This document shows, in pieces, positions 2,249 through 20,496 of a stretch of 20,496 nucleotides of DNA. The stretch's first letter is position 1. The number at the start of each line of letters is the position of its first letter. The DNA is from a virus. A program made the position numbers and the translations under genes. The notes under the pieces were generated by a model, which worked only from the letters and a program-made list of their open reading frames with translations, had not been told where the DNA came from and ran no database searches. The DNA is taken from positions 1 to 20,496 of IMG/VR virus record IMGVR_UViG_3300044701_000404. One strand, 5' to 3'.

Positions 2249-3364
2249 GTGTTCGGCTTTGATCCATTTTCAACTGCGCCGTTCTCAGCGATCAGTGGGT
2301 CGGGTGCCAACACATACACACGCGAAGTAGCCGAAACAGCCACCGGTACCGACGCTACCGATGCAATCCTAACGGTTAATTCAGCCGTTGCAGAAACGGC
2401 CACAGGTACTGACACCACCAACGCAAACCTCACCATCGATTCAGCCGTTGCAGAAACGGCTACAGCAACAGATACAACTGCGTCAAACCTCACCATCGAT
2501 TCAGCCGTCGCTGAAAGCGCCACGGCAACAGACACCACCGACGCAACACCCATATTAAGCGGGGCCATAGCCGAGTCCGCCACGGGTACTGATGCCGTAA
2601 GCGCAACACAAACGCTGGGTGCGAGCGTAGCCGAGACCGCTACAGGTACTGACTCAATCGCCAACAACCTCACGCTAAATACAAATCTTGCTGAGTCGGC
2701 TACTGCTACGGATTCGGTGACGGCTGGGGATTCGTATAGCGAATCAATTACTGAATCAGCAACAGGCTCAGATGTTGTTGCGGGTGATAAGTTTATTAAC
2801 ACCCTGATTGCCGAGGCAGCGACAGCGACTGACAGTATTAACGCGACGTATACCTTGGTGGCTTCGGTTTCAGAGGTTGCGCTCGGTGTCGACGCTATAA
2901 CAACAATTATCAGTACCTCTGGCAGCGTGTCAGAAAGTGCGACGGGTTCTGATGCTACCTCTGCGGCAGGGGAGGTTGATGGGGTTATAGCCGAGACTGC
3001 TACAGGTACAGACAGTATAGCGGCTGGGTTCTTATACGATAAGGCAGTTTCTGAATCTGCGACAGGACTTGACTCGGTTGAGTCGCTTTATATTCTGGGT
3101 GCCATCGTTGCTGAAACTGCGACAGCAGTGGATAATGTCGCAGCGCGAGCAGATTTTGTTGATGCTGTACTTGAATCGGCGCAGGGCGCGGACCTAACGC
3201 AGGGTGGTGGGTTGTTTAATGTTGGGGTGTCGGAGTCGGCGTCCATAACAGACGTAGCGTTTAGTCGGTTCTTGTGGGAGCTTATCGATGATTCCCAAGT
3301 GGCAAACTGGCAGACCATTAACACAAACCAAACTTCCAACTGGCAACCCGTCGATATGACATGA
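2249..3364 (+). CDS. Tandem 20-residue-repeat structural protein (tail-fibre module)
   Basis: The 371-residue product starts with FGFDPFSTAPFSAI and then holds a strictly periodic array: residues 27-326 are fifteen 20-residue units and a sixteenth begins at 327, with no insertions or deletions between units. The unit consensus is roughly [VI]-[AS]-E-[TS]-A-T-[GA]-[TS]-D-x(11); the first nine positions are conserved and the last eleven vary. After the array come FLWELIDD and two QxxNWQ mini-repeats (VANWQ, TSNWQ). The regular spacing suggests a solenoid or a stack of beta-turns giving an extended shaft, which is inference. The same unit appears three times in the gene at 4370. Translation starts at GTG 2249. 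The function is not known from any characterised homologue I can name. Confidence 0.75.
   Translation: MFGFDPFSTAPFSAISGSGANTYTREVAETATGTDATDAILTVNSAVAETATGTDTTNANLTIDSAVAETATATDTTASNLTIDSAVAESATATDTTDATPILSGAIAESATGTDAVSATQTLGASVAETATGTDSIANNLTLNTNLAESATATDSVTAGDSYSESITESATGSDVVAGDKFINTLIAEAATATDSINATYTLVASVSEVALGVDAITTIISTSGSVSESATGSDATSAAGEVDGVIAETATGTDSIAAGFLYDKAVSESATGLDSVESLYILGAIVAETATAVDNVAARADFVDAVLESAQGADLTQGGGLFNVGVSESASITDVAFSRFLWELIDDSQVANWQTINTNQTSNWQPVDMT
2327..3286 (+). repeat. Sixteen tandem 60-bp coding repeats
   Basis: Sixteen in-phase 60-bp units each encode one 20-residue repeat. DNA identity is highest at the 5' end: 2424-2448 is identical to 2484-2508 (25 bases, offset 60), and 2381-2400 is identical to 2441-2460. 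Later units keep the amino-acid pattern but diverge in DNA. This fits duplication at the 5' end or slippage-driven expansion. Confidence 0.9.
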
Positions 3365-4369: not shown

Positions 4370-5224
4370 ATGCCGGTTATTCAACGTTTAGCTGCTGGAG
4401 GCGCTCGGGGTTTTGGTTTCGGTGGTAACACAAATGTTACCTACGACGGAATAATTACTGAAACTGCTGCCGGAGTAGATGCTTTTGCTGGGGGCTTAAC
4501 GTTAGGCGGTGCAGTAAGCGAAACGTCAACAGGCGCAGATGGGACATCAAGCATCTTGGTTTATTTACGAGATGTTTCTGAAACTGCGGCTGCATCAGAT
4601 AGTATTTCTGTAGAAGGTGGAGCTCCGGGCATTGGTACGTTTATTTACGGTGGGTACTACGCCGGGATGATTGACTATAGTGGTACAGGTGCCGGACCTT
4701 TCTACTACCTAATTGTTGCACCAAAATCTACGCAGTCTCTGCAAGATTACAAAACAACCGATACAGCTACAGGTGGCGCTAATTCAATGGTGGATGGTGC
4801 GGCTAACACTTCTTACTTGGTGGGGATAAGTCCAACAACGTACCCCGCCGCTGGTTATTGTGATGGGCTAACTACAAATGGGTACACCGATTGGTATTTA
4901 CCTGCTTATTATGAATTAGAAATTTGTTACTACAACCTCAAACCCACAACTACATCTAACAATACAGGGTCGGGCACGACTAATCCTTATGCAGTCCCCG
5001 CACGAAGCTCGCCCTATACAACTTCTTCTCCAGCACAGACTTCAGTTGCGTTATTTCAATCGGGCGGATCAGAAGCGTTTAGCACTACTTCTTATCATTG
5101 GACATCAACTAACCAGTCAACTGCTTACGCATGGACAAAGAATTTTTCTAATGGGGCTGTTTTAGCTGTAAATAAGAGCTACTCAAATTATGTTCGGGCT
5201 ATTAGAAAGGTGGCGGTGGCATGA
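4370..5224 (+). CDS. Repeat-module protein with DUF1566/Lcl-like C-terminal domain; candidate variable receptor-binding protein
   Basis: The 284-residue protein has a short Gly-rich N-terminus (MPVIQRLAAGGARGFGFGG), three 20-residue repeats at 29-88 of the same type as the gene at 2249, and then a domain from about 89 to the end. That domain has YYLIVAPK, YCDGL, GYTDWYLPAYYELEICYYNLKP and a terminal HWTS, YAWTKNFSNG, NYVRAIRK series. This order matches the DUF1566 (Legionella Lcl-type) domain, a C-type-lectin-like fold used by phages for adhesion and known as a variable domain of diversity-generating retroelements. Here YHWTS replaces the more usual YWSST. Whether it varies in this phage is not shown: no template repeat or reverse transcriptase is present in the window. 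Its TGA overlaps the next ATG by four bases. Confidence 0.75.
   Translation: MPVIQRLAAGGARGFGFGGNTNVTYDGIITETAAGVDAFAGGLTLGGAVSETSTGADGTSSILVYLRDVSETAAASDSISVEGGAPGIGTFIYGGYYAGMIDYSGTGAGPFYYLIVAPKSTQSLQDYKTTDTATGGANSMVDGAANTSYLVGISPTTYPAAGYCDGLTTNGYTDWYLPAYYELEICYYNLKPTTTSNNTGSGTTNPYAVPARSSPYTTSSPAQTSVALFQSGGSEAFSTTSYHWTSTNQSTAYAWTKNFSNGAVLAVNKSYSNYVRAIRKVAVA
4454..4633 (+). repeat. Three 60-bp units of the shared 20-residue repeat
   Basis: Three in-phase units encode ITETAAGVDAF..., VSETSTGADGT... and VSETAAASDSI.... They keep the x-E-T-x-x-x-x-D spacing of the sixteen-unit array at 2327-3286, though the DNA has diverged. Confidence 0.8.
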
Positions 5225-5642: not shown

Positions 5643-6146
5643 ATGCTTTCACTTCTCTCAACACTTGGTGGCCTACTTATTTCGGGCCTACCCAAACTGC
5701 TTGATTACTTCCAAAACAAAGCCGACCAAGCCCATGAGCTTGAGCTTGCAAGGATGCAATCGGAGCGCGAACTAGCCTTAGCCAAAGAAGGTTTTATTGC
5801 TCAGCAGCGCGTGGAAGAGATTCGCACTGACCAGATTGCCATGCAGACGGATGCTCAAATGACCGTGGCGGCGCTGGACCATGACAAGCAGATCATTGAG
5901 AAGTCTAGCAAGTGGGTGGTGAACTACATTGGAACGGTGCGGCCTAATGTCACTTACTTGCTCATCTTAGAACTCATTGCCATTAACGCTGTGCTTGCTT
6001 ATTACGTCTGGCAGCACCCGCATCTTGTGCAAAACATTGATGACTTGGTTCGGGTCAGTACGATCATCTTTTCCGATGATGAGATGGCAATGCTTGGCGG
6101 CATCATTGGCTTTTGGTTTGGCTCGCGTAGTTGGCAGAAGAAATGA
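5643..6146 (+). CDS. Holin-like membrane protein with coiled-coil segment
   Basis: The 167-residue protein has an N-terminal amphipathic/hydrophobic segment (2-20), a long charged helix likely to be coiled-coil (about 26-88), a clear membrane helix at about 103-123 after a VRPNVTYLL motif, and a second short hydrophobic segment at 148-160 ending in IGFWFGSRSWQKK. The RPxxTY...FWFGSR pattern recurs in phage holin-like proteins encoded next to endolysins, resembling the three-TM holin group of gene transfer agents and phages. The lysozyme gene directly follows, overlapping its stop, and this supports a pore-forming role. I cannot tell holin from antiholin, and no spanin pair (Rz/Rz1) was found. 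Confidence is high for a membrane protein and moderate for holin. Confidence 0.6.
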   Translation: MLSLLSTLGGLLISGLPKLLDYFQNKADQAHELELARMQSERELALAKEGFIAQQRVEEIRTDQIAMQTDAQMTVAALDHDKQIIEKSSKWVVNYIGTVRPNVTYLLILELIAINAVLAYYVWQHPHLVQNIDDLVRVSTIIFSDDEMAMLGGIIGFWFGSRSWQKK

Positions 6147-6652
6147 AAACAGGACAAGCTGGTATAGACTTGATGCACAGTTTTGAAGGTAAGAGCCTTA
6201 AGCCTTACTTATGCCCCGCCCACATTTGGACGATTGGCTATGGTCATGTTTTGTATCAAGATCAAATTAAATTACCTGTAATAAGGAAAGATGGTTATAC
6301 CGGCATCCTTCGCAAGGACTACCCACTCGCAGCCCAAGATAATCGCACTTGGTCGCAGGAGGAGATTGATCGCCTTTTTGAGGATGATCTCGTCCGTTTT
6401 GAACGCGGTGTATTGCGAATGTCTCCTAATCTTGCTGGCCGTCAGTCAAGCTTCGACGCTGTGGTCAGTTTTGCGTTCAACGCTGGAACTGGGAGGTATC
6501 AGAGTTCCACAATAAGAATGAGAAACAACCGCGCCGACTATGAAGGTGCAGCAGAAGCGTTTATGATGTGGACTATGGGCGGAGGTAAAGTGTTACCGGG
6601 ATTGGTGCGCCGCCGCAAAGCTGAAAAAGCGTTGTACCTACGGGGTGCATGA
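6143..6652 (+). CDS. Endolysin, phage lysozyme (GH24, T4-type muramidase)
   Basis: The product cleaves the MurNAc-GlcNAc glycan bond of peptidoglycan to lyse the host. From ATG 6143 (169 residues), the active-site region reads SFEGKSLKPYLCPAHIWTIG, giving Glu15, Cys24 and Thr30 with the family spacing E-8-(D/C)-5-T. Cys24 takes the place of T4 lysozyme Asp20, as in several phage endolysins such as P1 Lyz. GYGH follows. Residues about 35-60 (YQDQIKLPVIRKDG...) form a longer insert than in T4-type enzymes before WSQEEIDRLFEDDL. The C-terminal part has FDAVVSFAFNAGTG and GLVRRRKAEKALY. No signal peptide or SAR segment is seen, so release should need a holin. ATG 6143 overlaps the previous stop; an in-frame TTG at 6131 is a weaker choice. 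Confidence 0.9.
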   Translation: MKTGQAGIDLMHSFEGKSLKPYLCPAHIWTIGYGHVLYQDQIKLPVIRKDGYTGILRKDYPLAAQDNRTWSQEEIDRLFEDDLVRFERGVLRMSPNLAGRQSSFDAVVSFAFNAGTGRYQSSTIRMRNNRADYEGAAEAFMMWTMGGGKVLPGLVRRRKAEKALYLRGA

Positions 6653-11345: not shown

Positions 11346-13208
11346 ATGGCGACATTTAAGTCAAACAAAGGTGAATTTACGGATGATCAGATCCGTAAGT
11401 ACGTTCAAGATAACTTTAATGCAGACACCTATAAATACCTCGTCAACCAAAAGCTTATACGCCCCAGCGATGATCCTGAAGAATTAAAACAGCGGGCTAC
11501 TTATTATGGGCTTACTCAGCTTCTTGGGATGCCTGATTCAGAAGCTCGTGCTGCAATGGCGTCGGTTTTTGAGAAAGGGTCAAAAGCTGATCTTGATGAG
11601 TTAGCACGTTTATACGAACGCTCCATGATTATTGGAGTGCCTACGTCTGCGCTTCAAGAGGCTGCGGCAAAAGTCGGTTTAACAAGCACTGATTCTTATG
11701 ACATTCAACGCTTTCTGGCAGACAGAGGAATTACTTCAAGTGCCGTAACTAAAGGCACGCCTTCCTATGAGTCGATTGTAGAGTTAGGCCCACAGATCAA
11801 CGCTAAAGATAATCCTATCCAAGGCGGCAACCTAATCTTCCAACCGGGGTACGACGCACCGGGGTCCAATACTAATATTTATGATTTAGCAAAGTCCATC
11901 ACAGCCGAGACTGACGCTACAAAACGGGCGGAGCTTGAGAAAACCGCTCAGGCTGAACAAGCCAAAATGAACACTGCGGCAAAGGCCGAAGCTGAAGCCG
12001 AGGCAGCGGCAAATATAGAAAAAGCCAAACAAGCAGTACAGCCTAAAGGTGCAGTATTTGATACTTCGGTTAAAACAGTTCGTGATGACGGTAGAGAAGG
12101 TACAGGAGTTTCGGTTGGTGGTGAGTCTGGGTTACGTGAGGGGTATGCGCCCTATGTACAACGTTTACTTGAACGTGCCTCTGCCGAGGCTGATGTGCCG
12201 TTTCTTAAATACACAGGTACATCCCCCCTGCTTGAATCGGCTAAGGCAGGGATTGCTAACTTAACAACACCTGCTCAATTCTTACAAGGTACCAATCTTG
12301 CACAGGCTGCTGGCATTGGCGCTTTGGAGTATGGGCAATATAAACCCACGGCATTTACGACGGGTACGTTTGCTAACCCTGTGCAGACTGAAACCACTGT
12401 ACCCAAAGCTCACGGCGGTGAAATTGAAGGATATGACGCTGGTGGTACCGTTGATGTAGGTGGGAATCCTGCTACTAACCCCTACACAGTACCTGCTAAC
12501 CCCAACATCCAACCCGTCAATTACGGGGGGCAGAACGTTACCAATGTGCAGGCGTCTTACATGTCGCCTTATATGCAGAATGTTGTTGATGTCCAGCAGC
12601 GCGAAGCCAAGCGCCAAGCAGATATTGCCAACCAAGCTATCGGAGCAAAAGCTGCACAAGCTGGGGCATTTGGTGGGGCACGTCATGGCTTGCTGGAGTC
12701 TGAAGCAAATCGCAATCTCATGACTCAGCTTGGTGGCATTCAGGCTAAGGGTTTACAGGATGCCTACACACAAGGACTTGGGCAGTTTAACGTCGAACAA
12801 GGTCGTGGGCTTGAAGCTCAGAAGATGAGTGAACAGTCTCGGCAGTTCGGTGCAGAGCTTGGGCTTAAAGGTTTGCAAACTGGTATCCAAGCAGGGCAAG
12901 CGCTTGGTAATCTTGGGCAACAACAAGGTTATCTCGATCTGGCAACGCTTAAACAAATGGCTGACTTGGGTACTGCTGATCGCAACTTTGACTATAACGA
13001 GTTCCTACGCGCTGAGAAGTATCCGTACGAGAACCTTACGTTTATGAAGAACATGCTGACGGGGCTACCTATCAGTGCAGCAGCTACGGGTATTGATCCT
13101 ATGTCACAGGCGCTTACGGGAGGAATATCTACAATAGCGCTCATAGATATGATAAATAAAATCAATACAGGGTCTACCGGCCCGACTACAACAGGTACAA
13201 AACCGTAA
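11346..13208 (+). CDS. Putative internal virion protein, helical, with conserved C-terminal domain
   Basis: The 620-residue protein has a helical N-terminal domain (1-150; FTDDQIRKYVQDNFNADTYK, LLGMPDSEARAAMASVFEKG), a charged Ala/Glu/Lys helix around 190-235 (KAEAEAEAAANIEKAKQ), a Gly motif at 356-373 (HGGEIEGYDAGGTVDVGG), and a conserved helical region from about 403 to 480. That region contains SPYMQNVVDVQQREAKRQAD, IGAKAAQAGAFGGARHGL and LMTQLGGIQAKGLQDAYTQG. The GAFGGARHGLLESEANRN stretch is a recurrent signature in uncultured podophage-like genomes; its function is unknown to me. Gln-rich helices follow to the end. No TM helix or catalytic residues are evident. ATG 11346 lies two bases after the previous stop. 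Position and helical make-up suggest an inner core or ejected protein. Confidence 0.6.
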   Translation: MATFKSNKGEFTDDQIRKYVQDNFNADTYKYLVNQKLIRPSDDPEELKQRATYYGLTQLLGMPDSEARAAMASVFEKGSKADLDELARLYERSMIIGVPTSALQEAAAKVGLTSTDSYDIQRFLADRGITSSAVTKGTPSYESIVELGPQINAKDNPIQGGNLIFQPGYDAPGSNTNIYDLAKSITAETDATKRAELEKTAQAEQAKMNTAAKAEAEAEAAANIEKAKQAVQPKGAVFDTSVKTVRDDGREGTGVSVGGESGLREGYAPYVQRLLERASAEADVPFLKYTGTSPLLESAKAGIANLTTPAQFLQGTNLAQAAGIGALEYGQYKPTAFTTGTFANPVQTETTVPKAHGGEIEGYDAGGTVDVGGNPATNPYTVPANPNIQPVNYGGQNVTNVQASYMSPYMQNVVDVQQREAKRQADIANQAIGAKAAQAGAFGGARHGLLESEANRNLMTQLGGIQAKGLQDAYTQGLGQFNVEQGRGLEAQKMSEQSRQFGAELGLKGLQTGIQAGQALGNLGQQQGYLDLATLKQMADLGTADRNFDYNEFLRAEKYPYENLTFMKNMLTGLPISAAATGIDPMSQALTGGISTIALIDMINKINTGSTGPTTTGTKP

Positions 13209-13218
13209 GGGGTAATAC

Positions 13219-14721
13219 ATGTCGCAGATCCCTTTTAACCCCATGCAGTCGCAAGCAGCGATTCAGAATCCTGCGCGTTTCCCCGACCAGAAGCTACAGC
13301 AGTACGCTGCGGGTAAACCACCACAACCTACTGGACAAGTCACGCCTCAGATGGCAGGACAAGAGTTGGCTCAACGGGGCGCGGAGCGTCAGGCGATTAG
13401 TCGTAATGCGGCTATGCAGAATGATCCCAAAAACAGCCCGACTATCTTTCAGCAGCTTATGATGAAAGAGCAAATGGTCAACCAACAAGCGCAAGCCATA
13501 CAGCAAAAAGAACAGCAGCTTGGTATGGCAGGTGCGATGATCGCCAAAAAAGCTCAAGACCTTGCAGAACGTGAGCGGGGTATAGCCGCCTTACCCATGC
13601 GCCCTGATATGTTTACCGCAATGGATGGTGGGATTGTGTTTAAACAGGGTGGTGGAGTTCAAGGGTTTAAGGGTGGCGGTGATATGTCTGCCCGAATTGC
13701 AGAAGGGTTTACAGAACGCGAAGACGAACCGTCTACATTAGGTAGTAGCGGCGTGAGTCCTAATGACCTTATGGCGTTGATTCGCAAAAGGATGGAAAGC
13801 ATCGATGAGGCTGAAAAAACTGCCATGCTTTCGCCTGAAGAAAAAGAACTGATGCGTTTTAAAAACACGCAAGAGATGCAGAAAGAGTACGATGAGTACG
13901 CACGAGGTAGGGGTGAAAGGCAACAAAAAGTAGCCGATGCTTTGAAAGGACGAGCGCCTGATCTTGGTGATTACTTAGGAGCTATGGCCGCAGGTGGTCC
14001 GGGTAAAACGCTTGCTGAAACGTTATCACGTATGGTCCCCGGTGCGGCTAAGTTACGTACTGAATACCAAGCGCGTGAGATGGCAGCGGCTAAGTTTTTA
14101 GCAGAAGCCGAAGAAAAAGCAGCCCAAGCCGACCTTGCAGAAAAACGTGGACAGCGTGATGTAGCGGCTAAACTTCTTCAGGATGAACAGGCACTGCGCC
14201 TTAAAGCTTTTGAAATTAAGCAAGGTGCAGCCAGGACAGGTATTCAGGGACTTGCTGCGATGCAAGAATCCCAAGATCGTCAAGCAAGCGAAGCTAGAAG
14301 AGCACAAGAAGCTGCGGCAACGCGAGCATTTGAAGAACAAAAATACAGAGAAGCTCCTGGTAGAGCAGCAGAGCAAGCTAAACTTGAGGCTCGTTTGCGG
14401 AGAGAAGGTCGAGTTCCGGGTGTTGATGAACGCCTTTATGACGACCTTACGTCAGGTGATCCTCAGCGTGTGGCCCGAGCCAACACGTACTTATCGGGGC
14501 GATATAACACAGCAGCACGTGGGCAGTTGACTGAAGCACAAGTTGCTAAAGCAGTTGCAGATTTTAATGACGAGTTTAAAGGCGAACAACTACGCAAGCA
14601 GCACGGCACTGTTGAAAAATATCTTGAGTATTTACGCACTACTCGCGCTAATATTGGGCAAGGAACTTCTGAAAGCAGCGGAGAAGTTGTTTACGATACT
14701 TCTGGAAAGCGAGTTCAATGA
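13219..14721 (+). CDS. Putative internal virion protein, Gln/Ala-rich coiled coil
   Basis: The 500-residue product starts with a Pro/Gln-rich segment (QIPFNPMQSQAAIQNPARFP), then Gln/Met-rich helices (MMKEQMVNQQAQAIQQKEQQ). A Gly-rich motif, MDGGIVFKQGGGVQGFKGGG, lies at 135-154. A charged helical region follows, with long probable coiled coil at about 275-390 (AREMAAAKFLAEAEEKAAQA, RRAQEAAATRAFEEQKYREA). The C-terminus includes YDDLTSGDPQRVARANTYLS. Composition, neighbours and a motif shared with the two preceding genes point to an internal or scaffold-like virion component, but no family is recognised. ATG 13219 is ten bases after the previous stop with a GGGGT nearby. Its TGA overlaps the start of the giant gene (ATGA), implying coupled translation. 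Confidence 0.6.
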   Translation: MSQIPFNPMQSQAAIQNPARFPDQKLQQYAAGKPPQPTGQVTPQMAGQELAQRGAERQAISRNAAMQNDPKNSPTIFQQLMMKEQMVNQQAQAIQQKEQQLGMAGAMIAKKAQDLAERERGIAALPMRPDMFTAMDGGIVFKQGGGVQGFKGGGDMSARIAEGFTEREDEPSTLGSSGVSPNDLMALIRKRMESIDEAEKTAMLSPEEKELMRFKNTQEMQKEYDEYARGRGERQQKVADALKGRAPDLGDYLGAMAAGGPGKTLAETLSRMVPGAAKLRTEYQAREMAAAKFLAEAEEKAAQADLAEKRGQRDVAAKLLQDEQALRLKAFEIKQGAARTGIQGLAAMQESQDRQASEARRAQEAAATRAFEEQKYREAPGRAAEQAKLEARLRREGRVPGVDERLYDDLTSGDPQRVARANTYLSGRYNTAARGQLTEAQVAKAVADFNDEFKGEQLRKQHGTVEKYLEYLRTTRANIGQGTSESSGEVVYDTSGKRVQ

Positions 14722-17700
14722 GCTACAGCATCCAACTACCTGACGGGCGCAGAGCGCGGTTTCCTGACACTATACCTTTAGAGCAAGCGCAGCAGATTGT
14801 GCGGCGCGACTTTCCAGATTTGTTTCCAAAACAAGGAGGGGTCGCAGGGGCTTTTAAGAAAGGTGCGGAGTCGCTCGTATCGAGTGCGGTAGCTGGAGCC
14901 ACTGGGATTGTTGACCCTGAACAAGCAGCGCGTGAAGCACTTGAGCGTGAGCAAGGTATTGCGCAGCGGTATAAAGACGAGACAAGCCTCGACGCACTTA
15001 AAGAGCGCTATCAGAAGGAAGGTTTGTTTGCTGCGGGTAAAGAGCTTGTACGTCAAGTACCGTTGGCTGTTGCAGAACAACTCCCACAAGTCGGGGTTTC
15101 TCTGGGTGGTGCGTTTGGTGGCGCACGTCTGGGGGCAATGGCAGGGTCTGTTGCTGGGCCGGTTGGTGCTGGTGTTGGGGCGACTGTTGGCGGTCTGGCT
15201 GGAGCGTTTGCGCCTTCTTGGCTTCAACAGTTTGGGACTAATCTTTCACGCCAAGCCGCTGAAGGCAAGACAATTGATGCCTCGTCCGCAGCCGCAGCCG
15301 CCGCTGCACAAGCTGGGATTGAGACTGCCGCAGGTGCGTTTATTCTTGGTAAGCAGATGGTGGGTAAGATTCTTGGACGCCCTGCCGAGAAAGCACTTGA
15401 TAGCACAGCAGGCCGCGCACTTGCTGAACAGAGTTTAAAGCGTACCTTGGCTACGGGGGCAGCGCGTGCTACAGCCGTTGAAGTTCCGACTGAAGTTACG
15501 CAGGCTATGCTTGAGCGTTTACAAGCAGGTCTCCCTCTAACATCAGACGACGCGCTCAAAGAGTACGGTGATACGGCATATAAGACAGCACTCAGCGCTC
15601 CTGTATTTGGTGGGGCTGCACGAGTAGGTGAGCGTGGCGCGGCGCGTACGCAAGTTGAAACGGAAGATGCAGCTAAACGCGCAGAAGAGCAACAACGTCA
15701 AGCAGCAGAGGATCAGCAGCGTCAGGCAGCAGAAGAAGCTCGCAAGCGTTCTCCCGAATATATGCAGCAGTTGAATCAAGAACAGGTTCAGCTCAAGGAT
15801 GAAATACGTCAGCTTAACGACTTGTTAAAAGATAAAACGCTTGATCCAACACAAAAGCTAGAAGCGCAGGATCGTCGTAAAGATATTGGTAAACGGCTTA
15901 AGGAAATTAACGACGAGATCCGGTCAGTAGTACCAGCACGTCCTGTTAGTGCATTGTTGGCAGAGCGTCAGATGGAGCAGGAAGCCAAAGGCGCACCTGT
16001 TGTTGATGAGTTTGGTAATGTTGTTCCCGGCAAATTTGTGCCCACTGAAGTAGACATCGAAGCGCAGGTTGGCCCCGGTTACGATACAGAGGTAAACAAG
16101 CTACGCGCCGCAGAAGAAAAGCGTGTACGTGAGCTACAAGAATCCTTACGTGAAGCGTATCAGCGTAGTGTGGCTGCGGCTGAGCGCAAAGACGCCAAAG
16201 AAAAAGCTGAGTACGATAAGCTAATTGCCAGTATTGCCAAGCAAGCTGAGAAAGGTAAGGAACGTCTTGCTAAAACTCAGATCCCTATGGACATGCAGAT
16301 GCCTTTTGCAGACGCATACGACGCGCTTACACAAGCTGCGGAGCAGACGCAAGTTGGGCAGTACGATGAAGCGCTTGTTGATCAAATTCTTCAAAAGATT
16401 GAAGGTCAACAACCTAAGCCTACGGTGCAAGCGCAAGGCGAACTTGCCCTTGAAGACCGCTCTAAATTCACCAGACAGATTCAAGATCTTCAAGCCCAAC
16501 GTGAAAAAGCTGTACAGGCCAGAGACTCAGCAACGATAGCCACACTTGATGCGCAGATTGCAGAATTACGTCGTGATCAAGCTGCGGCTGCGCCTGACTT
16601 TGCCACTAAGCGGGATGAAGTATTTCTTGATCTTGAAAGTACAGTTGATGATTTGAGAAAGCGCCGATATTTTGGCGTTACAGGAGAAACCGCAGAAGCT
16701 TCTTCATTAGCTGCGTCTTTACAGAAGAAAGCAACTGCCCTTAAAGGCGATTACGTCAATACGGTGCTGCAAGAAATTGCACAATCTCGTGCCGACAATA
16801 AACAAGTTGGACTGAATAAAAACGAAGAGCTTGCTGTTAGAGCGCGACTTGACGGGTTGTTGCAAGAATATATAACGCGTTCACAGGCATTGTCTGCTAA
16901 AGAAGTTAGAGACGGACTTGATCAAGTTGTTGAGAAGAAGCGTGAGTTTGCTCCGCGTGATGTGCAGGTTTTAACGCAACTTCAAAACCGTATTAAAAAC
17001 AACGCAGATGCTGAGCGTGCTTTAGCAGAGCGGATAGCTAAAGAACCTAACGAGAAATTACAAAAACAGCTTGACGCGTTAGGTGAGAATACTAGTCAAA
17101 TCGTTAATACGTTTTTACAGCGTTTAACTGAGCCATTGAAAGTTCGCGTTGTTGAAGTTTTACGTCGTCCGTCGGACACGCGTCCTTTGGGGGAACGCCC
17201 ATTTGGTGCTCCTGGGCGTGCTGCTGAATTGTTGCAAGAAGGGCTTAACGAAGTACGCCAGGAATACATGCGCCCTGAGCGCGTGGCTGCACCACAGATT
17301 TTAAAAACGGAATTCCCCGGCTACAAACTTGCACCTGCTGCTGAAGGTGAACCAACTAAGAGTCGCGTGGTTGTTACGCGTGATGAAAAAGAAGAGAAGG
17401 TAAGTGACACTGGTCGAGTACGCAGAAAGATTGAACAGGCAGAGTTGAAGATTGAGCGCGTTCGCGCTATGGGAGAACTACTGCCTGCGGTCGAGTCTGC
17501 GTTCGATACGTTTGAGCGCATGGACAAACCCAGTGAAGCGTTGGTTGATTTAGTGCTTGAACAAGCAGACAGAATTCTGAAGGGTACAGATCTTCCGTTC
17601 AAACCAAGCGCAGACATAACACGCCGTGCCAAACGCCCCGGTGCGCAGAATACGGCTGAGTTGTTGCCACAGATCCAAGAAGCTATTAAAGCTGAAGCAC

Positions 17701-20496
17701 CTGCCCCAGAAGTTGGTGGTGCGCAGATGGATTTGTTTGGTGAGAAAGAGCTTGAGCCCCGTGCCATTACGCGTAAGACGCCAGAAGCATTTATGCGTTT
17801 TCTTGGGTCGTTGCAAGTTTCAAATATGCGTAAGCGTATAACAGACGCTAAAAAACAAGCGGCTGACGCTGTACAGAAACAAAAAGATGCAGCACGTGCG
17901 TCCAAAGAAAACCTTGATAGGCTGATTGAAGAGGTAGGTAAAGACGTTACCAAGGCGGCAATGAAAGCGCAGCGTGATGCAGTTGAAAGCATGAACGCCG
18001 CCGCATTAAAAGATCTCCAGACGCTTGCGCAATCTGTATCGCAAGAGCTTGCCGCTAAGACAAGGCAGTACAAATTGATCACTGAGAAGGCAGATCGCGC
18101 TGAGTATTACATCCCTGATCAAGACCGTAAAGCAGCGGATGAATACCTTGCAGACCTACGTTCTGACTTGGAAGCTTTGATTGCCGAAATCAAAGACGCT
18201 GCGCCAACGGCTGAAGATAAACTGCTTGTTAATACAGAAGTAGCGCTTGATAAACGTCTGCAAGCGGAGAAAAATCTTTTAGCTAAACTTAAAGCAGAGC
18301 GTGAAGCTCGCACACCTAAACAAGAATCTGAGCAAGCTGTTGCACGGCGCAATGTTGCCGTTATTGAAGCGACACAGCGTAGGCTGGCCGACCTCCGTGC
18401 CAAGAACAAATTATTGTTTGAGCAGCGCCTTGCAGATATTTCAGGTATTCGTCGCACCAGAGAGACTGTTACAACTTTGGAAGAAACTGCTGGTGTATAC
18501 AAACCAAAAAAAGCAGGTTCAAAGAAAGAAACAAAAGACTTACGCATTCAACTAAGAACTCGTGAGCGACGTGTAACTACACCTGTCGGCAAAGGCGCAG
18601 AGAAAGTTGAGCGTCGCGCAGAACCGTTGGATCTTTCAAGTACGGCAGCGGAAGCATACGCGCTCACCGCTGAAGAAGAAAAAGTTTTGTCACCTGCTGA
18701 AGCAGCGCAAACACTTTTACGAGGTACACGCCAGGGTATTACCGCAACAGGAGCGCCAGGGGGTGTGACAGAACAACTGCGCAAGCAACGGCTTAAACCG
18801 TTACGCGGCGGAGAACCTGAAAAAGCAGCTAAAAATATTGCTGAAGCAAGTACGTTGCGCCAGCGTAAAGCTGGTAAAAAAGCGCAAACTGATAAAGATT
18901 TGTTGAAGCTGCTTAAATCTTTTGAAGAAGGTATTGCACGGCAAAACGACGACACTGCTTTCCGTATCGAAGAAGTTGGGGATACCGTTGTTGATCTTGC
19001 AGAAGCTCAGAAACGTATTGACGAATTCAAGTCCAAGCTGCCAGAAGGCGTGAAGTTTGTTTACGCTGAAACCATCATGGACGCGCCAAAGTCATTTATA
19101 CAGGCGCTCTACAACCAAGGCATGGATCAAGATAGTGCCAAGGTGCGTGGTGGTGTTCTGCCTGATGGGACTATTGTGGTGGTTGGTGAGAACCACACCG
19201 ACATGCTGGATCTTGAAAAGACGTTAGCACACGAGTTGGTTGGACACTATGGCGTTGATACGCTCTTTGGTCCTAAAGGCATGGACAACCTGATTGAGAC
19301 AGTCAATGCTCAAAAAGGTGGTATGGAGAAGCTAGCCTCTGACCTTGGTGTCTATGATGCTGCGCTTGGTGCTGCGTTGGCGTTACAAAAAGTTGGTGCG
19401 TCTGAACAAGCCCAGCAACGTGCAGCCATGCGTGAGTTAATTGCGCACGTTGAAGAAGCACGTATTGATGAAAACTTTAAGCAGAAAGCTCGTCGTTTTA
19501 TTGGCGAATTGATGGGCGCTGTTCGTGACGCGTTACGTAAGATGGGCTTGGCTACGCTTGCAGAACAGAACCCCTCAGACATTTACTTCTTGCTGCGTCA
19601 GTCACGCATCAACATGGCTAAAAGCAAAGCCGGGGCATACGTAGCGGGGGATCAAGTTGTGTTTCGTAGCGCCCCGCGCTACGGCGCAGATGTTCCTGAG
19701 AATGTCATTAAGACAGCAAACAAAATTGTTGCTACTCCTCCAGGAGTGTTTGACAAGGTTAAAGCTAACAACTCTTGGCTTGCCATCCGTACGCAGTTTA
19801 TTGATCGCTTTGAACCTCTGGAACGTGTTGCTGCTGAGATGAAGGACTCGCTTAAAGCAACGCAAATGCTGTACTACCTGCGCATGTTTGATCAGCGCAT
19901 GAGCTTTACTTCAGAAGTTACAAACAACGGAGCGCTTATTCTGGATAAGAAGAAGCGTGATGACGGTCAAGAAGAAATTGTGGTGCGCAGCGGTGGTACT
20001 ACTTCGTTGAAAGATGTGGCTACCGAATTAAGTAAAGCTACTTCGCTCAATGCGGATGCAGCCAATATGCTGTTCACGACATACCTTGCTGCGCTTCGTG
20101 CGGATCGTGTTGGTCTTGATACGTTGAACTTTAATCCTGACCTTACACAAAAAGATCTCGACGAAGTCAAAGCTTATGTTGAGCGCACACCTGATGTGAA
20201 GGCAGCGTTTAACGCAGCGCGTACGAAGTACAACGAGTACAACAAAGGGCTAATTAACTTCCTTGTACAGACTGGCACGTTGTCTAAAGAGTCTGGCAAA
20301 AAATTGTCAGAAACAAATGACTACATTCCGTTTTACCGCAAGCAGGGTGGCAACGCTGAGCTTGTGCTCGGGGGTGAGATTTCGCCTATCAACGTTGGTA
20401 ACTTAAAGAGTCAGCCATACCTCAACGAGTTGGTTGGCGATAACCGGCACATCCTTGACTTCTTTACAAGCTCGGTACAAAACACAAACCTGCTAA
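14718..20496 (+). CDS. Giant virion/polyvalent-type protein, 3'-partial (at least 1926 residues)
   Basis: One frame stays open from ATG 14718 to the window edge, with no stop in 1926 codons, so the protein is longer still. Order of parts: a short N-terminal domain (SYSIQLPDGRRARFP, 2-16); a Gly/Ala hydrophobic region at about 113-167 (VGVSLGGAFGGARLGAMAG), perhaps membrane-active; an Ala-rich helix at about 186-220; long charged coiled coils from about 312 to 1430; a QMDLF motif at 1003-1007; a metallopeptidase-like region around 1440-1620 with HELVGH at 1505-1510; and a helical region with YNEYNKGLINFLVQTGTL and DYIPFYR (1838-1874), resembling domains of phage large polyvalent proteins (LPD type, family number uncertain). 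Such giants are usually packaged and injected. Catalysis is unproven; N4-like RNA polymerase motifs were not seen. Confidence 0.8.
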   Translation, partial: MSYSIQLPDGRRARFPDTIPLEQAQQIVRRDFPDLFPKQGGVAGAFKKGAESLVSSAVAGATGIVDPEQAAREALEREQGIAQRYKDETSLDALKERYQKEGLFAAGKELVRQVPLAVAEQLPQVGVSLGGAFGGARLGAMAGSVAGPVGAGVGATVGGLAGAFAPSWLQQFGTNLSRQAAEGKTIDASSAAAAAAAQAGIETAAGAFILGKQMVGKILGRPAEKALDSTAGRALAEQSLKRTLATGAARATAVEVPTEVTQAMLERLQAGLPLTSDDALKEYGDTAYKTALSAPVFGGAARVGERGAARTQVETEDAAKRAEEQQRQAAEDQQRQAAEEARKRSPEYMQQLNQEQVQLKDEIRQLNDLLKDKTLDPTQKLEAQDRRKDIGKRLKEINDEIRSVVPARPVSALLAERQMEQEAKGAPVVDEFGNVVPGKFVPTEVDIEAQVGPGYDTEVNKLRAAEEKRVRELQESLREAYQRSVAAAERKDAKEKAEYDKLIASIAKQAEKGKERLAKTQIPMDMQMPFADAYDALTQAAEQTQVGQYDEALVDQILQKIEGQQPKPTVQAQGELALEDRSKFTRQIQDLQAQREKAVQARDSATIATLDAQIAELRRDQAAAAPDFATKRDEVFLDLESTVDDLRKRRYFGVTGETAEASSLAASLQKKATALKGDYVNTVLQEIAQSRADNKQVGLNKNEELAVRARLDGLLQEYITRSQALSAKEVRDGLDQVVEKKREFAPRDVQVLTQLQNRIKNNADAERALAERIAKEPNEKLQKQLDALGENTSQIVNTFLQRLTEPLKVRVVEVLRRPSDTRPLGERPFGAPGRAAELLQEGLNEVRQEYMRPERVAAPQILKTEFPGYKLAPAAEGEPTKSRVVVTRDEKEEKVSDTGRVRRKIEQAELKIERVRAMGELLPAVESAFDTFERMDKPSEALVDLVLEQADRILKGTDLPFKPSADITRRAKRPGAQNTAELLPQIQEAIKAEAPAPEVGGAQMDLFGEKELEPRAITRKTPEAFMRFLGSLQVSNMRKRITDAKKQAADAVQKQKDAARASKENLDRLIEEVGKDVTKAAMKAQRDAVESMNAAALKDLQTLAQSVSQELAAKTRQYKLITEKADRAEYYIPDQDRKAADEYLADLRSDLEALIAEIKDAAPTAEDKLLVNTEVALDKRLQAEKNLLAKLKAEREARTPKQESEQAVARRNVAVIEATQRRLADLRAKNKLLFEQRLADISGIRRTRETVTTLEETAGVYKPKKAGSKKETKDLRIQLRTRERRVTTPVGKGAEKVERRAEPLDLSSTAAEAYALTAEEEKVLSPAEAAQTLLRGTRQGITATGAPGGVTEQLRKQRLKPLRGGEPEKAAKNIAEASTLRQRKAGKKAQTDKDLLKLLKSFEEGIARQNDDTAFRIEEVGDTVVDLAEAQKRIDEFKSKLPEGVKFVYAETIMDAPKSFIQALYNQGMDQDSAKVRGGVLPDGTIVVVGENHTDMLDLEKTLAHELVGHYGVDTLFGPKGMDNLIETVNAQKGGMEKLASDLGVYDAALGAALALQKVGASEQAQQRAAMRELIAHVEEARIDENFKQKARRFIGELMGAVRDALRKMGLATLAEQNPSDIYFLLRQSRINMAKSKAGAYVAGDQVVFRSAPRYGADVPENVIKTANKIVATPPGVFDKVKANNSWLAIRTQFIDRFEPLERVAAEMKDSLKATQMLYYLRMFDQRMSFTSEVTNNGALILDKKKRDDGQEEIVVRSGGTTSLKDVATELSKATSLNADAANMLFTTYLAALRADRVGLDTLNFNPDLTQKDLDEVKAYVERTPDVKAAFNAARTKYNEYNKGLINFLVQTGTLSKESGKKLSETNDYIPFYRKQGGNAELVLGGEISPINVGNLKSQPYLNELVGDNRHILDFFTSSVQNTNLL
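19035..19577 (+). other. Metallopeptidase-like region inside the giant gene
   Basis: Residues about 1440-1620 contain a beta segment (GGVLPDGTIVVVGEN) followed by a helix with TLAHELVGHYGVDTLFG, putting His1505, Glu1506 and His1510 in HEXXGH spacing. Downstream acids that could be the third zinc ligand are Glu1573 (RELIAH) and Glu1579/Glu1580 (HVEEARID). The spacing is not that of classic HEXXH zincins but recalls M49 dipeptidyl peptidase III. This is a motif match by eye, not a family assignment. Confidence 0.45.

Follow-up and report, generated by a model that had tools for sequence, protein, structure and literature searches.

Among the domains of phage polyvalent proteins, zincins are the most common, and zincin peptidases with an HEXXXH motif were previously described in these proteins by Iyer et al. 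2017 (PMC5512222); the six-residue motif is therefore already known from phage polyvalent zincins. The same authors suggested that polyvalent zincins may process the polyvalent proteins that carry them, be it ahead of packaging, inside the head or once injected, or may be effectors (PMC5512222). The best-studied homologue is gp50, the virion RNA polymerase (vRNAP) of phage N4. The cryo-EM paper on N4 names the zincin region C1 and points out its HExxH motif, and it describes C2 as being without a known structural homologue (PMC12633501). N4 gp50 is packaged unprocessed (PMC5512222), and recombinant gp50 showed no degradation (PMC12633501). The tubulin carboxypeptidases MATCAP/TMCP (KIAA0895L) are another HExxxH variant of the gluzincins (PMC10499314). 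No direct protease assay of a polyvalent-protein zincin is reported in the literature cited here.

The window analyzed here is the whole 20,496-nucleotide stretch of IMG/VR virus record IMGVR_UViG_3300044701_000404 (positions 1 to 20,496). It carries the open reading frame (ORF) of a giant protein in which a candidate metallopeptidase domain was located, with the following features:

14718..20495, + strand: ORF of a giant polyvalent-type protein, truncated by the end of the contig after 1926 aa
18996..19550, + strand: predicted zincin-like metallopeptidase domain, about aa 1427-1611, based on AlphaFold2 models, a profile match to N4 vRNAP C1 and zincin-rich structural matches
19149..19157, + strand: core strand, aa 1478-1480, in the AlphaFold2 model
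19173..19184, + strand: core strand just ahead of the motif helix, aa 1486-1489, in the AlphaFold2 model
19230..19247, + strand: HELVGH, aa 1505-1510, read from the sequence, with His1505, Glu1506 and His1510 kept in 64/64 rows of a set not chosen by motif
19434..19436, + strand: Glu1573 in the helix at aa 1563-1580, the candidate third zinc ligand, invariant and aligned with the Glu of N4 NEFMAW
19455..19457, + strand: Glu1580, from the alignments a possible active-site neighbour and not the main ligand candidate
19635..20495, + strand: start of the C-terminal module, aa 1640-1926

An earlier sequence-only reading of the window had proposed a metallopeptidase-like motif, HELVGH, with three glutamates further on as possible third ligands. 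Translation of the ORF confirmed HELVGH at aa 1505-1510 (nt 19230-19247), and Glu1573, Glu1579 and Glu1580 are at the positions that were given for them. All three are contained in RELIAHVEEARID, which begins at aa 1572 of the giant protein. Glu1573 lies 63 residues downstream of HELVGH and forms an E-x-x-A pattern with Ala1576.

Close relatives of the domain were found in viral contigs, with 79-98% identity over the domain. The distant relatives include phages cultured on Vibrio, Achromobacter, Bacteroides and Escherichia and many more viral contigs, and examples of cultured phages with the domain are E. coli phages PTXU04 and Pondi and Achromobacter phage CF418P1, while a few came from bacterial genomes, e.g. 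Cupriavidus, Acinetobacter and Bacteroidales. In alignments of 27 and 58 diverse sequences, H1505, E1506, V1508, H1510, G1512 and E1573 were invariant, although many of the loci in both alignments had been found by motif-containing patterns and are thus biased toward intact motifs. Conservation of the HExxxH residues was judged on a set fetched by the C-terminal module and not on motif scans. This unbiased set consisted of 80 loci, 73 of which have at least 700 aa upstream. HExxxH was present in 62 of these 73 loci, and HELGH in one (L204). Among the aligned rows, with the window counted, H1505, E1506, H1510, E1573, A1576 and E1580 were present in 64 of 64, and E1579 in 42 of 64.

Judging from these alignments, E1573 is the best candidate for the third ligand, because it is invariant in all distant relatives while E1579 varies and several lineages of the wider set have Q, D, A or G in place of E1580, which is invariant in the near clade. 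The three candidates first offered were thus reduced to one, and the conservation that had been proposed as a check was observed for H1505, E1506, H1510 and E1573, but not for E1579. The HEXXGH form fared similarly: it is true of the window copy, but G1509 is replaced by V or A in some distant relatives. Since the fifth position can also be V or A, the family motif is read as HEXXXH and not strictly HEXXGH. The six-residue form is also less unique than was implied by naming dipeptidyl peptidase III as the known example, as HEXXXH occurs in phage polyvalent zincins and tubulin carboxypeptidases.

The HELGH of L204 (nt ~3447 of IMGVR_UViG_3300032296_000148) has the ordinary HEXXH spacing. It has one codon fewer in frame than its relatives, and this variant was seen in one contig only. 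The C-terminal module was found without the HEXXXH domain in 10 of the 73 loci. Eight of these ten (L215, L219, L220, L232, L233, L241, L244 and L245) have another HEXXH domain elsewhere in the chain. The substitute domain (ETLLHEGTHAA ... LSEFAAE) resembles the N4 type by eye, and it is located farther from the C-terminal module than the HEXXXH domain is. Neither peptidase was found in the other two of the 73 (L217 and L223), the ORFs of which may be cut upstream. In most loci, the C-terminal module is therefore accompanied by one of the two types of zincin-like domain, and the presence of an N4-like HEXXH domain instead in 8 of 10 loci is what would be predicted if the peptidase activity were the feature retained.

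The family alignment (A2) was compared by hhalign with an alignment of the N4 vRNAP zincin region from 11 schitoviruses (A3). The match had a P of 2.1e-9 and a probability of 96%, and the score of 69.1 compares with at most 18.5 in forty column shuffles and with 41.3 when the motif columns were masked. In this alignment, the N4 counterpart of E1573 is an equally invariant residue, the Glu of the NEFMAW motif. On this profile evidence, we regard the domain and the C1 zincin domain of N4 vRNAP as homologues. In N4 gp50 C1 (aa 2124-2375; PDB 9pnr), the elements are arranged in the same order and include an ET-x-x-HE stretch and a Glu helix with the E-x-x-A pattern; a large helical C-terminal region comes after the domain, as it does here. 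The two differ in that the N4 motif, HELVH, has five residues compared to six here, and in that an RNA polymerase is located upstream in N4, whereas none was detected here (no profile of a single-subunit RNA polymerase domain was matched in P0001 or P0002).

The AlphaFold2 models of the domain had mean pLDDT values of 83.9 and 85.7, and they predict a zincin-like core that starts with a helix, a strand and a second helix, continues with two strands and the motif helix, and ends with linker helices and the Glu helix. The strand at aa 1486-1489 followed by a helix at aa 1496-1511 that carries HELVGH agrees with the beta segment and motif helix proposed earlier. The top structural match of model 1 was N4 gp50 aa 2162-2365 (Z 4.7, rmsd 6.7, 157 aligned). 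The leading rows for both models were mostly zincins, consisting of lethal factor, 3e11, PPEP-2, IrrE, M61 and MATCAP, although many rows match the N-terminal domain of lethal factor and not its catalytic one. These PDB comparisons were made with VIA re-alignment, in which Z was at most 5, and are treated as supportive only. Foldseek searches of the PDB with both models gave no match with an E below 0.27, while the best match to predicted viral structures had an E of 1.4e-7, and many of the matches there are named polyvalent proteins. A PDB sequence search returned nothing significant (3e11, a predicted zincin, at E 0.3-0.8), and searches of Pfam, NCBIfam and PHROGs left the domain itself without a meaningful match. 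Structure prediction thus bears out a zincin-like core with mostly zincin matches, but with low PDB scores; together with the profile match to N4 C1, it supports the proposed zincin-type metallopeptidase domain.

The HEXXXH set of Iyer et al. 2017 is similar to the present family in its HEXXXH motif, its zincin core, its location within a giant phage protein and the LPD domain in relatives. The predicted models also contain the three-stranded sheet, the N-terminal helix and the two conserved C-terminal helices of that set, and the conserved Glu in the second of these C-terminal helices corresponds to E1573 in the helix at aa 1563-1580. No difference was found in the comparison with the published description. 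The likeness to MATCAP/TMCP consists of a weak structural row (7z5g, Z 3.0, rmsd 5.9, 129 aligned); these enzymes differ in being eukaryotic, no sequence match to them was found, and their EEG third-ligand motif was not seen here.

The window copy of the giant protein stops before LPD38 and before the conserved core of the C-terminal module, both of which are present in a full-length relative of 2567 aa (L003/P0002). In P0002, a profile match places LPD38 at aa 2276-2449, near the end of the protein (E 2.6e-29), and the module core MNFxRRG...PFxNAQIQG lies just before it, at aa ~2162-2255. InPase, LPD3, helicase and GNAT acetyltransferase matches were found in distant relatives. The full-length and distant relatives fit the definition of polyvalent proteins by Iyer et al. 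2017 (PMC5512222), and in these relatives the domain sits in a large multidomain protein together with polyvalent-protein domains. Three genes upstream in the window also bear on the context of the ORF:

6131-6652, + strand: phage lysozyme/endolysin
6649-8709, + strand: virion structural protein phrog_3287
11346..13208, + strand: DNA ejection protein phrog_4287, a weak match (E 4e-4)

These neighbours form a late virion gene block with a virion and ejection context. From the relatives and this gene context, the giant protein is probably injected by the phage. In podovirus JC1, a large DarB-like protein was detected in virions (PMC9144972). A literature search for virion mass spectrometry on large polyvalent proteins yielded no paper.

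The C-terminal module has 489 relatives. When it was compared with N4 C2 using close N4 relatives only, the result was not significant (P 0.1). A second comparison, in which eight diverse schitovirus proteins and nine further family relatives obtained with a raised length limit were used, gave a P of 3e-4 over 86 columns for part of C2, and a score of 48.7 compared with at most 16.6 in 30 shuffles. The match is between the stretch MNFxRRG...PFxNAxIQG at P0002 aa ~2162-2255 and the C-terminal part of N4 C2. The link of the downstream module to N4 C2 should be considered tentative, because it involves one short stretch and because more sequences were put in after the first comparison had been negative. 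It is conceivable, though we would not count on it, that the HEXXXH zincin and the module after it are the counterpart of N4 vRNAP C1-C2, so that a widespread "protease plus ejection module" would be common to N4 and the many polyvalent-protein phages, with five- and six-residue zinc motifs interchanging in one family, and this module would act on the ejected giant protein. Should the N4 link be correct, the "new fold" of N4 gp50, which is unexplained, would belong to a module that is present in hundreds of phage contigs.

Our data are best accommodated, by a modest balance of likelihood, by a zincin-fold, gluzincin-type HEXXXH metallopeptidase of the polyvalent-protein kind that is homologous to N4 C1 and serves to process the giant protein in its packaged or ejected state. 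His1505, His1510 and Glu1573 would hold a zinc ion, Glu1506 would serve as the general base that activates water, and the motif helix would accommodate the one extra residue. The giant late protein would probably be packaged and ejected, and the domain may cleave its own giant protein, either in cis or via a neighbouring copy, and thereby free domains while the head matures or once the host is reached. Catalysis is favoured because the general base E1506 is invariant, which suggests an enzyme rather than a structural metal site. The packaging of N4 gp50 in unprocessed form and its lack of degradation show that self-cleavage is not general in these proteins.

A chance origin of the motif, as a string in a helical, low-complexity phage protein, would be in keeping with the upstream part of the 1926-aa protein, which is largely charged and repetitive in composition. 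However, HELVGH is more than a chance string because the protein has just five histidines, four of which are inside the peptidase domain (1493, 1505, 1510 and 1577), because about 0.001 HExxxH sites are expected in it from composition, and because the motif is conserved in relatives that were fetched without it. A chance origin is in fact refuted by the invariance over distant relatives and by the homologous N4 profile, and we give it practically no weight. Membership in the dipeptidyl peptidase III (M49) family was also considered and rejected, and is about equally improbable. The likeness to that enzyme consists of the six-residue HEXXGH string and a downstream Glu, to which a loosely similar EEARID string can be added, but the motif Gly is not fixed in the present family. 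In M49, the third ligand is carried by an EExRAE motif. This motif is absent here, and the nearest string, EEARID, begins with Glu1579, which varies (42/64), and does not include the invariant Glu1573. No M49 profile was found in Pfam at E up to 1 for P0001 and the domain segment, and the profile homology is to N4 vRNAP C1. Dipeptidyl peptidase III was missing from the structural match lists, although this does not exclude the two-lobed M49 fold.

If the domain is an active protease, it could alternatively be an effector that cuts one or more host proteins after ejection, e.g. defence or stress proteins. This role is among those listed as possible by Iyer et al. 2017, related zincin domains are effectors in other conflict systems (PMC5512222), and the invariant catalytic residues would suit it. 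No host target is indicated, however, and the fact that the domain, or the N4-like peptidase, is coupled to one C-terminal module points to a partner within the same chain; an effector role therefore seems rather unlikely, and ranks second after self-processing. Less likely again, and third in rank, is a metal-binding or inert zincin with a structural part in packaging or ejection, as in N4 C1-C2, and with little or no proteolysis. In its favour, N4 gp50 retains its zincin C1 yet is packaged unprocessed and shows no degradation (PMC5512222, PMC12633501), the N4 region that spans the domain is required for encapsidation (PMC5512222), and the downstream module and N4 C2 have a stretch in common. 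A purely structural zinc site would not need E1506, however, and this residue was never lost in the 64 unbiased or the 58 diverse sequences. Processing of the giant protein by its own peptidase thus remains our preferred reading.

Compared with the published description of phage polyvalent zincins, the present analysis contributes the Glu assignment, a measure of conservation free of motif bias and a natural HEXXH variant. It also adds the replacement of the domain by an N4-like peptidase and, tentatively, a connection between the downstream module and N4 C2. The family offers a clean test case, with a compact domain, one clear ligand set and a natural relative with HEXXH spacing.

Some further observations were made on the relatives and on the rest of the window. 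Small 40-kb Bacillus megaterium phages (Page, Pony, Pascal and kin) likewise encode the C-terminal module, in hypothetical proteins. Many of the loci L016-L029, L032 and L036 have an extra HEWWH, HEWLH or HELGGH in the same protein, perhaps in additional peptidase domains. Within the window, the predicted proteins at 2249-3364 and 4370-5224 have ETATGTD-type repeats in common, the first consisting mostly of such repeats, and a 2OG-Fe(II) oxygenase (PF13759, E 2e-22) is encoded at 3-497, upstream of glycine-rich and repeat-bearing genes.
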